From Myxococcota bacterium (GTDB lineage Bacteria; Myxococcota_A; Polyangia; Polyangiales; Houyiibacteriaceae), in assembly GCA_028284955.1 (NCBI GenBank), contig JANQQS010000032.1, forward strand, positions 1 to 53,540: DNA of 53,540 bases, written 5' to 3'. The stretch's first letter is position 1. Every line of letters starts with the position of its first letter. The position numbers and the translations under genes are program-made. Below, piece after piece: positions 1 to 53,540 of this stretch. Below the pieces are notes generated by a model. The model did no database searches. It worked only from the letters and a program-made list of their open reading frames with translations, and had not been told where the DNA came from.

Positions 1-111
1 TCGTAATCTCGAGAGAAAAGCTAAGGTGTTCGGGTTCAAACTCTTACCCATCCCACAAACCGAATCGGGGGTTAGTTAGGAGACCCTCAGGCAAACTGAC
101 CGCTGCTCTAG
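1..111 (-). repeat. Decayed edge of the dispersed hairpin repeat
   Basis: Positions 81-111, read on the minus strand, match the outer edge of the intergenic element found at 7315-7558 and 46222-46422: CTAGAGCA, then a GGTCAGTTT-like block, then the start of an AGGGTCT arm. Beyond that the first hairpin is not present. A CCCGATTC stretch at about 61-71 may be a remnant of the conserved linker. It therefore looks like a degenerate or truncated copy. The rest of 1-228 holds no gene that I can support. Confidence 0.5.
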
Positions 112-6879: not shown

Positions 6880-7314
6880 ATGGCCACTTTTCTCACTGTC
6901 GTGTACGTACTCGTCTGCCTCTTTTTGATCATGGTCGTTCTCCTGCAGTCCGGCAAAGGAGGAGGTATGGGCGCGGCGTTTGGCGGCATGGGCGGCGCCG
7001 GCCAGCAGGTCTTCGGCGGCGCCGGCGCGGGCAACCTGCTCACCCGGATGACCGCTATCTCAGCCGCGCTGTTCATGATCATATCCGCCGCGCTCGCGTA
7101 CCTTTCGTCAGGAAGCGAAAACGCGCTCGAGCGCGCCGCGAAAGAACAAAAAGCGGCCAAAACGATCGTCGCAGACAAAAAAGAAGGCGCTTCGACGGAG
7201 AAGAAAAAGCAAGAGGCGACTCCCGCAGCTGCGACATCAAGCGAGCCATCGACCACCCCGGCCAAAGAAGAATCCTCGGAGGAAGAGTCCCTAAGCTCAA
7301 CGCCTTCTGAGTGA
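6880..7314 (+). CDS. secG: SecG, preprotein translocase subunit
   Basis: Small inner-membrane subunit of the SecYEG channel. It has a first transmembrane helix at about residues 3-23, then the glycine-rich LLQSGKGGGMGAAFGG loop typical of SecG, and a second helix at about 53-72. The product is 144 residues, longer than the roughly 75-110 usual for the family, because of a charged Lys/Glu/Ala/Ser tail after residue 75. An AGAGGA ribosome site precedes ATG 6880. It closes the glycolytic operon, a linkage (tpiA-secG) common in bacteria. Confidence 0.94.
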   Translation: MATFLTVVYVLVCLFLIMVVLLQSGKGGGMGAAFGGMGGAGQQVFGGAGAGNLLTRMTAISAALFMIISAALAYLSSGSENALERAAKEQKAAKTIVADKKEGASTEKKKQEATPAAATSSEPSTTPAKEESSEEESLSSTPSE

Positions 7315-7558
7315 TTCTGTGTTTCTCGGAGGGTTTGATGCAAACCCTCCCCCCCGCGGGTACAACCCGCGCGGGACCCCCTCCCGACTCCGGCCGCTTC
7401 GCTGCCGCCCCACCGCGAAGCGGCGGGGCCCCAGCAGTTCAACCTCACGAAACCAGGTCACGTGCCTCCTGGCGGGGAGCTGGGGTGAATCGGCGGGGCC
7501 GTACCCCGACGACAGGGTCTGGGTGCCAGACCCTCCGGTAAACTGACCATTGCTCTAG
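7315..7558 (-). repeat. Dispersed hairpin-chain intergenic element, copy A
   Basis: Fills the gap between the convergent secG and kinase genes. On the minus strand it starts at CTAG (7555-7558, which includes the kinase stop codon) and runs through several short-loop hairpins. They include 9-bp arms 7514-7522 / 7526-7534 with a 3-base loop, 7-bp arms 7355-7361 / 7365-7371 with a 3-base loop, and 10-bp arms 7328-7337 / 7341-7350 with a 3-base loop. The linker between the hairpins matches 46222-46422 and 53330-53540. It has no coding potential that I trust. As a string of GC-rich hairpins between convergent genes it may also stop transcription. Confidence 0.85.
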
Positions 7559-10500
7559 TGCGGGAGTGGGACCGGTTTGCCGGCGGCGACTGCGGCGAGG
7601 GCTTCTTCGGCGGCTTGTTCGTAGTAGCGGTGACCGTATTCGGTGGCTAAGCGAAGCACTTCGCGCAGCAGGTCTTCGCCGCTATCAGTATTTCCCGTAC
7701 GATGGTCGGCGACCGCCAGCATGTATTTGCATTGGATAACGTCCCAAAGGTACCCGTGTTCGGTCGCGTATTCGAGCGCTTCGAGCATTCGATCGCGTCC
7801 TTCGGAGGAGCCAAACTTGATCGCGTCGATGAATCCAAGCACCCGCATGTTGGTATACTGAAGCCGGACCAGTCCTTGGTCGCGGGCGATCTCGTAGCTG
7901 TAGCGCGAAAGCGCAAACGCACGTTTGTAATCGCTCGACCGGAGATAACACTCGCCCATGTTGTGCGCGTTTACTGCTGCTTCGAACGGAAAACCGTATT
8001 CTTTGGCGAACTCCATGGCGCGGCCTGCCGTCTCAATCGCGCGCTGTTGGTCGCCAACATAGGCGTTGACCAAACTTTCTGCTTTTAGCAGCTCGCATTC
8101 GGTGTACCGATCATCGGTCGAGAGCTGGCGCGCGTCGGCGATGGCTTGAATGGCCCCTTCCCGATCCCCCGTCCCGGCGTAGGCAAGGGAGAGCGGAATC
8201 AGACAGCGGACTTGGGCCAATCGATCGGATGCTTCTTTCGCGATATTGAGCGCTTCCTGAAGCAGGCCGATGGCATGAGAATAGTGCCCATTCCGAGTGC
8301 TCGCGTCAGCCGTAGCAACGGTCACGTCAAGGAGCAGCTGCGGGTCGCCGAGCTTGCGCGCGATGTCTCGAGCCCGGTCAAACCATTGTCGTGCCTCTTC
8401 CGCAAAACGATTGGAATGGTAAAGCAGACGGCCGCGCAGCATTGAGAATCGCGAAACGCAGTCTTCTCGTCCCAAACTTTCGGCCAGCGCCAAACCCGCT
8501 TCCATGCGCTCGATTCCTTTTTTGGGCGCGCCGCTGCGAAAGCTCAGATCACCGAGCCGGCGATAGAGCGAGAGGATTCGGTCGTGGTCTGGGTTTGGGG
8601 TTTGGCCGAGCATGTCGATGGCCTCACCAAGGCTCGCCGCCGCGCTCGTCAACGCATACTCGCTCTCCAGCCGATCCGCAGAACGAATCAAATAGTCGAT
8701 TGCCTTTGACCGATTCCCCGCACGACGGTGATGGTCGACCAAGCGTTCCGCCATTTCGTGTACGTGCTCGGGGTAAAGCTGCTCCAAGGCGCCGGCGACC
8801 GCGCCATGAAGCTCTCGTTGCGCGTCGATGGTGAGGCCTTCTCGGAGCACGTCGCCAATCAGTTCGTGAGAAAAGGCGTATTCCTCGTGTCCGGCCCGTA
8901 CTACGATTCCTCGCTGCTCGAGCACGGTGAGCGATTGCTCGACCGTCTCGACTGGCTCCGCCGCCACCGCCGCAAGCAAGTTGGTGGGAAAGCGAGCGCT
9001 GGTGATGGCTGCGATCTGCAGAAGATGGCGCTCGGTGGGACCAATTCGTGCAAGGCGGGCGGCGACGATACCGCGGAGTGTCTTGGGCACTTCCACGGCG
9101 ACTTCGGGTTTGAATATCAACCGTCGGTCGGATTCGACAACAACGGCCTCAGCGTCGCGCAGAGCTTTGAGATACTCCTCCACATAGAGAGGATTGCCGC
9201 CGCTCTTCACCGACACCTCCCTCAAAAGGTCAGCCGGCACTTCGTTGGCTCTCAATCTCGCGGAGATCAAGAACGTGATTTCGTCTTCCGACAACGGCTG
9301 CAGACGGATCTCGTGGTAATCGGGAAGGTTGCTCCAAGCGTGGACCATCCCGGGACGAAAAGAGAGCATCAGCACAACGCGCGCGGACCGGTCGTCGCGA
9401 AGCAGGCTGTAAAGCAAGGCCAAACTCTCGTCGTCGATCGATTCCACGCCGTCTAGAGCGAATACCGTAAGGCGGTCTTCCGCCAGTTTACTCGCGATAC
9501 GCGCCAGCGCGGAAAGCAACGGTTGCGCGACCGTGGTTTCGGGCAACCGGTCCTGGGCGACGCCGAGAGTCACCCGAACGGCCTGTATCTCTACTCCGGG
9601 CAAACCAAGTTCTCGAAGGCGACCGATCTTTTCTCGAACGTCTGCTTCCGCTTCGAACTCATCAATGCCGAGCACCACCCGGAGCATCTCCTGACACGCC
9701 GCGAGCGGAACGTTACGGCTCCGCTTCGAGATGCGCGCGACGTACATGCCTACGTCGTGTCCCCCGAGCCGCAAGCGCCGCGTGGTTTCGAGAAGCAGTC
9801 GCGTTTTGCCTGCGCCAGCATCGCCGACGATCCCCACTATTCGGCGGTGCCCCTGGTTGGCCTGCGCCAGCGATTCACCGATGCGACGAAGTTCGTCTCG
9901 CCGGCCGATAAACTTCCCCTGATGCTCGGTTAGATTGCGTTCGGCGACGATGCGAAACCGTCCCGCGGTCACCTGGTGTTCTTCGCCTTCAGGGGCCAGT
10001 TCGAATATTGAGCGCACCGTCGCTTCCACGACTGGCGTGGCGAGCGGTTTTCCGTACGGCGCGGTCGTCGCTACGGCATGTGTATCCTGAGTAAGCTGAC
10101 GATAGCGATCATCGCGCAGGAGCTCCCCCGAAATATCGACCAGTAGCCGTCCCGAATGCACAGCGATTTGTAAGGTGTTGAAACCGCTTTGCTCTGCACG
10201 CAGCCGCGACGCCCGCGCGAGGGCAAGCGCGCATCGGACGGCAGACTCCGTCTCCCGTCCATCCGGGTCGAGCACGCCAAACACGGCCGTCCAGTGACGC
10301 CCTTCGGGCTCGGACGAGTACTCGGTGATCAATGCGCCGGCGCGCTGCAAATGAGCCTCAAGTTTGGTCTGCGGAAATGGGCTTCTCGCATCGAGGTGGA
10401 TGGCAAGCGTGGCCACATCTCGTTGCTCAGCCTGAGGTCGCGCCACGTTGGTGACGACGCGCTCGCGCTGGCTCCGAGGCGTTGCGTCGTCCGGCGAGAC

Positions 10501-11616
10501 CACCGCGGTGCGCTCCCGGCGAATCCGCGCCACTGGTGTCGGCGCCGGCGAGTCGTAGGAGCGAGGGTCCAAATCGAACGCGGCGCGCAAGTCGGTTGCA
10601 TCATCCGCCGGTGGCTGGCTCTCGATCGACTCCTTGAGCCCTTCGAGGTAGTCCGCAAGATCGCGCGCGCCCACGCGCCGACCGCTCGAGTAGAGAAACT
10701 GAATCAATGCCTCGTACAAGCGCCCTGCGTCTGGATGACGCTCGCCGGGGTCGCGACTCATCGCTGTGGTGACGATGTTGCAGAGCTCTTCCGGAACGTG
10801 CGACGCGAGCTCGCGAAGCGGAACGATATCGACCTCGCGAACTCGCGACAACGTGTCGTACACGGACCGCTCGAGAAAAGGATTGCGACCGGAGAGCGCT
10901 TCGTAGAGCACGGTGCCGAGAGAAAAGAGGTCGGTTCGGGCATCGACCTCATCTCCGTTGGCTTGCTCGGGAGCCATGTACGCGTGTTTGCCCTTGAGAA
11001 TGCCGGCCTCGGTCCGTTCGTCGACAGTGGTTCGCGCCTTTGCGATTCCAAAGTCGGTGAGCTTGACCTCCCCTTCGAAGCTCAAGAGCACGTTCTGGGG
11101 TGAGACGTCGCGGTGCACAATGTGCAACGGTTTGGATGAAGCATCGCGGCGCCGATGGGCATAATCAAGCCCTTTGGCGACTTCACTCACGATGAACACG
11201 GCGAGCTCCGGAGGGAGCGTCGCGTCGGTGTCGCGAACCGTTTTGAGAATCGTGGCGAGATCGAAACCGGCCACGTATTCCATTGCAATGAAGAAGCTAC
11301 CGTTCGCCCGGCCTAAATCGAATACTTGAACAATGTTTGCGTGCGACAGAGTGACGGCGATTTTCGCTTCGTTGATAAACATGTCAACGAATCGCGGGTT
11401 TTCTCCAAGCTCATCGAGGATTCGCTTGATCACGAGAATTTTTTCGAAACCCTCGACTCCGTGCGACTTGGCTTTGAAGACTTCCGCCATGCCGCCACGA
11501 GCGAGCCGTTCGAGAAGCTGATACTTGCCATAGACGCGGGGACGATGGGTTCCCACATTCACACTCGCACTCGCGCGTGGGCTGCGAACGCCCGGAATTG
11601 TTGTCGTTTTCGCCAC
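7555..11616 (-). CDS. Ser/Thr protein kinase with cyclase-like, AAA ATPase and TPR regions
   Basis: A 1353-residue cytoplasmic signalling protein. The kinase domain spans about 29-300: glycine loop LARGGMAEVF, Lys64, catalytic HRDVSPQN at 168-175, DFG at 188-190 and an APEQ motif. About 397-560 resembles a degenerate adenylate/guanylate cyclase-type domain without an obvious metal site. About 567-900 is an AAA_16-like ATPase with Walker A GDAGAGKT at 598-605 and a Walker B-like FALDG. The remaining about 450 residues are helical repeats, TPR-like. Such PknK-like fusions are common in Myxococcota; input signal and target are unknown. GTG 11616 has a GAGGG ribosome site about 10 bases upstream. 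The TAG stop lies in the edge of repeat copy A. Confidence 0.9.
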   Translation of the reverse strand: MAKTTTIPGVRSPRASASVNVGTHRPRVYGKYQLLERLARGGMAEVFKAKSHGVEGFEKILVIKRILDELGENPRFVDMFINEAKIAVTLSHANIVQVFDLGRANGSFFIAMEYVAGFDLATILKTVRDTDATLPPELAVFIVSEVAKGLDYAHRRRDASSKPLHIVHRDVSPQNVLLSFEGEVKLTDFGIAKARTTVDERTEAGILKGKHAYMAPEQANGDEVDARTDLFSLGTVLYEALSGRNPFLERSVYDTLSRVREVDIVPLRELASHVPEELCNIVTTAMSRDPGERHPDAGRLYEALIQFLYSSGRRVGARDLADYLEGLKESIESQPPADDATDLRAAFDLDPRSYDSPAPTPVARIRRERTAVVSPDDATPRSQRERVVTNVARPQAEQRDVATLAIHLDARSPFPQTKLEAHLQRAGALITEYSSEPEGRHWTAVFGVLDPDGRETESAVRCALALARASRLRAEQSGFNTLQIAVHSGRLLVDISGELLRDDRYRQLTQDTHAVATTAPYGKPLATPVVEATVRSIFELAPEGEEHQVTAGRFRIVAERNLTEHQGKFIGRRDELRRIGESLAQANQGHRRIVGIVGDAGAGKTRLLLETTRRLRLGGHDVGMYVARISKRSRNVPLAACQEMLRVVLGIDEFEAEADVREKIGRLRELGLPGVEIQAVRVTLGVAQDRLPETTVAQPLLSALARIASKLAEDRLTVFALDGVESIDDESLALLYSLLRDDRSARVVLMLSFRPGMVHAWSNLPDYHEIRLQPLSEDEITFLISARLRANEVPADLLREVSVKSGGNPLYVEEYLKALRDAEAVVVESDRRLIFKPEVAVEVPKTLRGIVAARLARIGPTERHLLQIAAITSARFPTNLLAAVAAEPVETVEQSLTVLEQRGIVVRAGHEEYAFSHELIGDVLREGLTIDAQRELHGAVAGALEQLYPEHVHEMAERLVDHHRRAGNRSKAIDYLIRSADRLESEYALTSAAASLGEAIDMLGQTPNPDHDRILSLYRRLGDLSFRSGAPKKGIERMEAGLALAESLGREDCVSRFSMLRGRLLYHSNRFAEEARQWFDRARDIARKLGDPQLLLDVTVATADASTRNGHYSHAIGLLQEALNIAKEASDRLAQVRCLIPLSLAYAGTGDREGAIQAIADARQLSTDDRYTECELLKAESLVNAYVGDQQRAIETAGRAMEFAKEYGFPFEAAVNAHNMGECYLRSSDYKRAFALSRYSYEIARDQGLVRLQYTNMRVLGFIDAIKFGSSEGRDRMLEALEYATEHGYLWDVIQCKYMLAVADHRTGNTDSGEDLLREVLRLATEYGHRYYEQAAEEALAAVAAGKPVPLPH

Positions 11617-46221: not shown

Positions 46222-46422
46222 GTAGAGCAGTGATCAGTTTACCTGAGGGTCTGGCACCCAGACCCTCTCGTCGGGGTACGTACGACCCCGCCGATTCACC
46301 CAAACTCCCCCTCCAGGAGGCACGTAACCTGGTTTCCGGGTAGTTCGCGGAATACCCCTCCCGATCCCGATCCTCACCCCGTTCCCACTGCGAGTGATCA
46401 ACGCAAGCAGGCTTTGCTCTAG
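46222..46422 (+). repeat. Dispersed hairpin-chain intergenic element, copy B
   Basis: The left edge reads TAGAGCA (46223-46229), the right edge TGCTCTA (46415-46421): a 7-base inverted end. The first hairpin has 9-bp arms 46246-46254 / 46258-46266 with a CAC loop, followed by a CGGGGT ... ACCCCG hairpin and the conserved linker. The distal hairpins of copies A and C are missing or changed. The right edge contains the stop codon of the TPR/HTH gene (46419-46421). Confidence 0.85.
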
Positions 46423-47396
46423 CGGTATCGTTCGTCGAAGGTTTCCAGGTCGAGCGCTCTTCGTATCCGAAGGTAGCGATTGCACAGTGTGCCCCGCGCG
46501 ACGCCGTACTTCTTCGCGATTTCGGCTTGGGTCACATCGTCTCGAGCATGGACAACACAAATCGCGTACTCAACCGCCGCGGCATAAACCTCCGGCTTCA
46601 ACACGCGCACCGGCGCGGCTGACAAAAAATCGTTCCACAGCGTGCGGGCGCGTTCTCGTTCCGATCCGGTAAACCCGGAACGCCGCATGCCCTGCTCGGC
46701 AACCTTCCAAACAGTTTCAGTCGCCGGGTTGTGTTGAATGACATCGTCGTCGTTGCGAAACAATCTATCGCCGCGAGAAGCTGCGGAAGGTTCGTCCTTC
46801 AGCGCATGCAACTCGTCGATCCAAGCTTTGAGCTTCTGATGCCCCGGGTTGCGCGGGGCTTGTTCTATCGCCCCATCGGCGAGGCCCGCGGCTTCATCGA
46901 GATGTCCGAGCTGAGCGAGACAGTGGGCGAGCGAAGCTGAGATTTCGTCATGCTCCGGCTCGAGCTCGTGGGCCTGCCGGAGGTGTTTCTCCGCCGTGCT
47001 TGAATCACCAAGCGCGACGTCCAGAAGGTGGCCAAGGTTGTGGTGGTACCAGGGGATATCGGGTGCGGTGCGTAGAGCTCGTCGATATGAGTTTACAGCC
47101 GCGCGATAGTTGCCGAGCAGCGCCTGACACAGGCCCATCATCGCGTGCAACACATCATCGTTCGGTCGCGCCTCAAGCACTTGTTTGAGATGGAGCGCAG
47201 CGCGCCAAGGGTTGTTCCGAAGCCGAAGCTCCGCCATATGGCGATGCGCATAAAGCGCGTGAGGGCTTCCTGGGGCGGCAAGGCCGATCATCCGATCGAG
47301 GAGCAGTTCAAGCTCAGTCACCTTCGACGACCGATCGAGCGCCATCTCGATTTTGTGCCGCAGCCTCGTGAGCGCGGAGTCGGTAGACTCAGTCAT
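46419..47396 (-). CDS. TPR protein with C-terminal cyclin/HTH-like domain
   Basis: A 325-residue cytoplasmic protein. About 50-190 holds TPR repeats (AALHLKQVLEARPNDDVLHAMMGLCQAL, AAVNSYRRALRTAPDIPWYHHNLGHLL, AEKHLRQAHELEPEHDEISASLAHCLAQLGHLDEA). About 245-325 has an all-helical region with a TFIIB-cyclin or DUF6398-like HTH pattern: PEVYAAAVEYAICVV followed by TQAEIAKKYGVARGTLCNRY. It may bind DNA or RNA polymerase, but this is by resemblance only. ATG 47396 is the likely start, and the stop falls in the repeat-B edge. Confidence 0.75.
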   Translation of the reverse strand: MTESTDSALTRLRHKIEMALDRSSKVTELELLLDRMIGLAAPGSPHALYAHRHMAELRLRNNPWRAALHLKQVLEARPNDDVLHAMMGLCQALLGNYRAAVNSYRRALRTAPDIPWYHHNLGHLLDVALGDSSTAEKHLRQAHELEPEHDEISASLAHCLAQLGHLDEAAGLADGAIEQAPRNPGHQKLKAWIDELHALKDEPSAASRGDRLFRNDDDVIQHNPATETVWKVAEQGMRRSGFTGSERERARTLWNDFLSAAPVRVLKPEVYAAAVEYAICVVHARDDVTQAEIAKKYGVARGTLCNRYLRIRRALDLETFDERYR

Positions 47397-53291: not shown

Positions 53292-53329
53292 GAAGCCCAA
53301 CGAAACCAGGGCCCCATCGCTGTTTTCTT

Positions 53330-53540
53330 AGGGTTTGGCACCCAAACCCTCTCGCCCGGGATACGATCCCGGACGATTCACCCAAACTCCCCCGCCAGGA
53401 GACACGTGACTTGGTTGCGTGGGGTTGAACTGCCGGGGCCCCGTCGCGTAGCCATGGGGCGGCCGCGAAGCGGCCGGCGGCGGGGGGGGGCCCCCGCGGA
53501 ATCGTATTCCGTGGGGGGAGGGGCTGCGGCCAGCCCCTCC
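53330..53540 (+). repeat. Dispersed hairpin-chain intergenic element, copy C
   Basis: Begins about 40 bases after the Rieske stop and runs to the window end. Hairpins: 9-bp arms 53330-53338 / 53342-53350; 7-bp arms 53356-53362 / 53366-53372; 6-bp arms 53461-53466 / 53470-53475; a 12-bp stem with one G-T pair 53491-53502 / 53506-53517; and 10-bp arms 53517-53526 / 53531-53540. The linker matches copies A and B. It may continue past the window. Confidence 0.8.

Follow-up and report, generated by a model that had tools for sequence, protein, structure and literature searches.

What is the chain of short hairpins that lies between secG and a kinase gene in this Myxococcota genome, and how did it come to lie at the ends of genes? 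The window, that is, the whole stretch of 53,540 nucleotides that was analysed, contains three copies of it (A, B and C), which a sequence-only reading had picked out as an element made of short-loop hairpins. All three are real and lie about where that reading had placed them. Copies A and C both carry the whole series of further GC-rich hairpins, C being cut by the contig end. Copy B, given as 46222-46422, does have the first two hairpins but only part of the linker, after which unrelated sequence follows. With the hairpins numbered h1 to h6, the features in the window are the following.

7317-7543, minus strand: copy A, a complete single unit (nhmmer profile match and alignment A1)
7537-7556, minus strand: left end of copy A, CTAGAGCAATGGTCAGTTTACC; the kinase gene (7555-11616, minus strand) has its stop codon in the TAG of this end
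7514-7534, minus strand: h1 of copy A, AGGGTCTGG-CAC-CCAGACCCT (alignment, fold and covariation)
7490-7512, minus strand: h2 of copy A, TCGTCGGGGTACGGCCCCGCCGA, the strongest covarying stem
7431-7489, minus strand: linker of copy A, TTCACCC..CTCCCC..CCAGG..CACGTGACCTGG..GTTGAACTGC, conserved and predicted, together with GGAGTCGGGAGG, to close a multibranch helix
7407-7429, minus strand: h3 of copy A, GCCCCGCCGC-TTC-GCGGTGGGGC (fold and covariation analysis)
7390-7406, minus strand: h4 of copy A, GGCAGCGAAGCGGCC, a short stem (fold)
7351-7375, minus strand: h5 of copy A, CCCGCGCGGGTTGTACCCGCGGGGG, covarying
7328-7350, minus strand: h6 of copy A, GGAGGGTTTG-CAT-CAAACCCTCC (fold)
7317-7327, minus strand: A-rich right end of copy A, GAGAAACACAG; the TGA stop of secG is 2 nt away
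6880-7314, plus strand: secG (SecG domain)
46237-46345, plus strand: copy B, the head alone, i.e., h1, h2 and part of the linker (nhmmer and sequence)
46346-46422, plus strand: sequence fused to copy B; the CTA in its final TGCTCTAG provides the TAG stop of the gene at 46419-47396 (minus strand)
53321-53537, plus strand: copy C, from the T-rich end CTGTTTTCTT through h6 (nhmmer), cut by the contig end at 53540
81-111, minus strand: a fourth, fragmentary copy with the left end and the start of h1 (BLAST)

The end CTAGAGCA, as found at the left of copy A, also precedes other copies; scanned alone it occurs 31 times against 22 expected, slightly above chance, and several of the matches form a second dispersed repeat. 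This second repeat ends in CTAGAGCAGTGGCCTTTTGGCCTGATCGCGGCT, and its CTAG often holds a TAG stop codon. It is present in the window at 7537-7556, 46222-46245, 46400-46422 and 104, and elsewhere at L031, L044, L108, L110, L113 and L130. At several loci, copies A and B among them, it is joined to the hairpin element at the latter's left end.

The copies in the window belong to a large dispersed family and are not three chance matches. Indeed, in the genome from which the window derives (G000, a 6.07-Mb draft of 223 contigs, 96.6% complete), the 244-nt DNA query made from copy A gave at least 87 matches with 40 of 274 candidate places scored, and each of the 150 candidates scored with a covariance model of h1, h2 and the linker was a match, so that at least 150 copies are present. 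A sample of about 678 kb, mostly picked independently of the repeat, holds 23 loci, which extrapolates to about 200 loci per genome. The earlier view that this is no known repeat is borne out by Rfam, which gave no match for the window at the gathering threshold or for copy A at E<=1, and literature searches on myxobacterial intergenic repeats or MITEs returned no description. Many contigs of the draft start or stop inside the repeat (C2, C12, C58, C60, C64, C86, C97, C107, C109, C150, C153, C183, C215, C221 and others); thus, the repeat probably caused much of the fragmentation of the draft.

Beyond the earlier description, the element can be defined past h2 as a unit of about 230 nt with its own ends, consisting of a T-rich end, h1, h2, the conserved linker, h3, h4, h5, h6 and an A-rich end (AACAACACAG). 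In the alignment of 30 copies (A1, mean identity 85%), the consensus of the left part is T-rich CTGTnTTnTTTG, h1 AGGGTCTGG-CAC-CCAGACCCT and h2 TCGTCGGGGTACGACCCCGCCGA; the linker reads TTCACCCAAACTCCCCCGCCAGG...CACGTGACCTGG...GTGAACTGC; and the right part comprises h3, h4, GGAGTCGGGAGGGGG, h5, h6 GGAGGGTTTG...CAAACCCTCC and the A-rich end GAACAACACAG. The unit ends are inverted repeats of each other, as CTGTGTTGTTTG plus h1 corresponds to the reverse complement of h6 plus AACAACACAG, and h1 and h6 are almost identical in inverse orientation. Integron attC sites were considered and dropped: h1 and h6 are each a local hairpin and do not together make up a single palindrome, and the copies lie dispersed through the genome. 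The hairpins themselves hold up well, since the fold of copy A beats 200 of 200 dinucleotide shuffles (z of -5.1 as DNA and -4.3 as RNA) and the stems covary. In the consensus fold of the 30 aligned copies, standard pairs occupy 98.3% of pair cells, and double-sided changes affect 11 pairs (39 cells), where shuffles give 4.9 pairs (8.3 cells), a signal that is lost when the partner columns are slid. Unit variants with extra internal sequence also occur; the longer ones have an additional 100-200 nt ending in AGAGCAAGGGGGCGTAGGGGCCCCCGCGCAGCGCGAAGCGGCG before h5 (L013 1940-2515, L021, L038 and L043).

Also new with respect to the earlier description is the tandem arrangement, most loci consisting of one head and one to four tandem units that together reach about 1.1 kb. 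The unit end ACACAG is recurrently joined to TCACCC, CTCCCC, GGGCCCC or TCGGGAGG; partial copies break off in the loop of h1, the linker, the loop of h3 or the loop of h5, whereupon a new intact left end begins. At L025, about 20 bp of the interrupted copy occur twice, once to either side of the copy inserted into it. By inspection, units of the same locus often carry common locus-specific variants (e.g., L018, L038 and L043), and part of the tandem arrangement is therefore due to local duplication. At L046 1-96 and at the right end of L017, the element breaks inside h5 at an identical foreign sequence (GGTATGAACC...) and the contigs end, which suggests an IS inserting into the h5 hairpin.

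The position of the copies relative to genes is far from random. The upstream gene is co-oriented with the element in 46 of 52 resolved cases and anti-oriented in 6, compared with 40% co-oriented under a null of random insertion into the intergenic space of the same genome; among the 38 loci with both neighbours known, 21 are convergent, 14 tandem and 3 divergent. Of 45 first heads, 19 have the stop codon no more than 12 nt from h1 and 27 have it no more than 32 nt away, some of these distances being uncertain as the gene calls come from a simple script. As at copy A, the left end coincides with the stop codon itself: at many loci the stop is formed by letters 2-4 of a terminal C-TGA, C-TAG or C-TAA, or is contained in the T-rich end (TTTGAGGG, GTTAATTTG), and such genes read a few codons into the element. 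The product of the argJ-like gene at L046 ends in NADYRT, presumably the usual end of ArgJ, and the native stop therefore seems to have been kept. The element is thus dispersed, as had been proposed, but the label 'intergenic' is too weak for it, because it abuts stop codons and, in a sister genus, also lies in frame in the 3' ends of genes. Targeting, selection or a combination of the two may account for the placement at stop codons.

Distant DNA matches were found in this sister genus, g8 (species genomes G007 and G014), and in another family, f3. At a threshold of 1e-5, the covariance model matched nine of 183 genomes of the order, namely the genome studied here, the two of g8 and six of g79, a genus in another family of the order; most of the six have many copies. 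The g8 version is shorter, with the T-rich end, h1, h2 and GATTCACCCGARCTCCCCCGCCC, and often ends soon after, and that of g79 reads GAGGGGGACGCCTCGCGTCCCCCTC TCGTCCGGGCAAAGCCCGGACGATTCACCC, with two further hairpins behind it. The g79 version has different stem sequences but retains CTCTCG and CGATTCACCC. Covariation over the three genera scores 0.350, compared with 0.114 for shuffles and 0.079 at most for slid columns. Repeats in another family of the order have only GGAGTCGGGAGGGG, h5 and h6 in common with the element (L060, L066 and L071 in G053; L056, L064 and L069 in G034; L054 and L063 in G058). These repeats bear A-rich tails up to AAAAAAAAA, several stand directly behind stop codons, and in G053 they adjoin long arrays of GAGCGAAGCGAAGTC hairpins.

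Comparison of the two g8 species shows that the element has moved recently in this genus, because of eight sites that were compared, seven hold the element in one species and are empty or different in the other, flanking direct repeats are present, and insertions are found in frame in gene 3' ends. In particular, at the pdhB/pdhC junction of G014 the element stands between two copies of ATGGCyAArATCGTAGGACTT, a 21-bp duplication, and in G007 the target is present once and the element is absent. A second site in G014 has a 28-bp duplication, AGAAGTACCGATGGCCAAGCGAGATCCC, and is empty in G007. At ilvB/ilvN, the element of G007 follows ilvB with a 23-bp duplication, and that of G014 lies instead in frame within the 3' end of ilvB. 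Three copies in all are in frame in g8 gene 3' ends (L218, L225 and L227), of which L218 and L225 are each near the gene end in one species only. The convergent site L243 differs between the species, and the rpsB-tsf site carries the element in both. Flanking direct repeats of variable length, 16-28 bp, were seen at 4 of about 22 g8 copies; at L225, about 27 bp of the gene are replaced and no duplication is visible, and the insertion chemistry is therefore not uniform. No target duplications were detectable in the genome of the window, where three apparent ones proved to be artefacts at contig starts. Recent movement is thus shown only for the shorter g8 version, and the insertions in the genome of the window are older or were made differently.

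Several readings of these data have to be weighed. Chance matches or an assembly artefact, to which the many contigs ending in the repeat might point, have practically no probability left: this reading is refuted by the number of copies, the covarying stems, the presence at single-copy gene ends and the recurrence of the head in independently assembled genomes. A 3'-UTR or terminator module that is fixed, kept by selection and homogenised by gene conversion would fit the precise placement at stop codons, the covariation and the site common to both g8 species; such an immobile module is nevertheless improbable, and for g8 it is contradicted by the sites that differ between the species, by the insertions inside coding 3' ends and by the flanking duplications. 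If the element is mobile, it could be a MITE of a DDE transposon, with CTGTGTTGTTTG..../....AACAACACAG as terminal inverted repeats recognised by the transposase. The inverted T-rich and A-rich ends and the near identity of h1 and h6 favour this, but no autonomous copy or transposase lies beside any inspected copy, duplications of constant short length are lacking, and no IS1202-type transposase (NF033594), the type associated with long target duplications, was found in G000 or G007, so that a MITE in this sense is a possibility on the unlikely side.

Unlikely too is mobilisation of the REP/REPIN type, in which single-stranded hairpin units are moved in trans by a RAYT (Y1 HUH) transposase. 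Hairpin ends, high copy number, gene 3' ends, convergent pairs and the lack of duplications in the genome of the window agree with it, and genome-wide searches for enzyme families (Y1_Tnp, RVT_1 and ISNCY_2) found one RAYT-like Y1_Tnp gene there (L268) and two RAYT-like genes in each g8 genome. However, the sequence-only reading, which had seen no transposase next to the copies, is supported here as well: no element lies beside the RAYT-like gene of L268, and the g8 RAYT genes (L264-L267) have no adjoining element, with a single weak match (E 0.036) in L267. The long g8 duplications are unlike HUH chemistry, the GTAG tag is missing, G053 and G058, which carry the distantly related repeats, have no Y1_Tnp match, and two examined g8 RAYT genes have inverted repeats of their own. 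The latter genes (L264 2994-3869 and L266 2882-3820) stand between 67- and 79-nt inverted repeats that begin GGGGACA and are unrelated to the hairpin element, a TIRtron arrangement comparable to that of TIRYT genes (PMC3733652). A retroposon-like route is quite unlikely: an RNA with an A-rich 3' tail, reverse-transcribed into nicked or broken target DNA, would leave A/T-rich ends that are fixed, copies truncated at hairpins, and target duplications that are long and vary in length. In its favour, the duplications of 16-28 bp vary in length, the ends resemble a hairpin plus A-rich tail, and partial copies often stop in loops or linkers. Against it, no RVT_1 reverse transcriptase candidate was found in the 96.6% complete genome, the right-end tail AACAACACAG is almost constant and therefore encoded rather than added, and the locus-specific variants common to tandem units mean that many junctions are local duplications. 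A similarly long shot is that the element, lacking its own transposase, spreads by an undescribed way of copying directed to the 3' ends of genes, e.g., RNA- or hairpin-templated at DNA breaks or nicks beside stop codons, which would leave long variable target duplications or small replacements and, across families, replaced stems with the unpaired CTCTCG and CGATTCACCC fixed.

Comparison with described repeat families places the element more closely. REP, BIME and REPIN sequences are GTAG-tagged palindromes with units of 20-40 bp (PMC3733652). They resemble the present family in high copy number, hairpins, location downstream of genes and between convergent genes (here 46 co-oriented versus 6 anti-oriented upstream genes, and 21 of 38 loci convergent), and composite arrays, but the unit here is about 230 nt with six hairpins, T-rich CTGTnTTnTTTG instead of a GTAG tetranucleotide precedes h1, no RAYT gene is flanked by the repeat (L268, L264-L267), and the g8 target duplications are long. 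In CGTC-tagged palindromic repeats, RPE-4 and RPE-6 among them, the stem of 8-9 bp begins with A-T pairs and the tail is CCA (PMC3733652); they too are hairpin repeats without a dedicated transposase, but CGTC stands here between h1 and h2, the h2 stem is GC-rich (GGGG/CCCC type), and the motif that follows as a tail is CGATTCACCC. Rickettsia palindromic elements (RPE), of about 100-150 bp, are in frame in coding genes, their mobiliser being unknown (PMC10969869). The g8 version is likewise in frame in three genes (L218, L225 and L227), whereas insertions of the present family are concentrated at extreme 3' ends and stop codons, and in sequence and architecture the two seem unrelated. MITEs such as RUP, BOX, ERIC and Coxiella QMITE1 (PMC10969869) are similarly short, non-autonomous and abundant, with the terminal inverted repeats also found here; in contrast, no parent IS was seen beside the copies or in the genome-wide searches for Y1_Tnp, RVT_1 and ISNCY_2, the element is a chain of local hairpins and not one long palindrome, and target duplications, rather than being constant in length, are absent in the genome of the window, 16-28 bp in g8 and absent at L225. 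On these comparisons, the family behaves in the manner of REP, RPE or MITE repeats but lacks the defining marks of REP and CGTC repeats that were looked for; it is classed here as a new family of mobile palindromic repeats in bacteria, with REP/REPIN, CGTC repeats and RPE as the closest in behaviour.

Collectively, these data make it very probable that copy A is a member of a family of non-autonomous mobile palindromic elements. In such a family, an enzyme encoded elsewhere would copy the element, using the hairpin and the T/A-rich ends as signals, and insertion would occur into or just behind the 3' ends of genes. Survivors would accumulate at stop codons because the end of the element supplies or leaves a stop codon, and also because the hairpins would make up the 3' untranslated end of a single gene or of a convergent pair; there, they probably stabilise the 3' ends of mRNAs or hinder transcription weakly. 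The tandem composites would arise afterwards through further insertions and through slippage, for the most part at the loops of hairpins.

Palindromic repeats are widespread in bacteria, but the movement of those without a dedicated transposase, as in CGTC repeats and RPE, is an old open question. In g8, occupied sites with duplicated targets can be set against empty ones, and diverged versions of the same architecture exist in three genera, which makes the insertion chemistry and the functional parts directly testable. For annotation, the repeats account for many contig breaks in the genome of the window and, in the sister genus, for odd C-terminal tails. Their tight placement at stop codons, in turn, represents a natural experiment on how hairpins immediately behind a stop bear on mRNA ends and convergent transcription.
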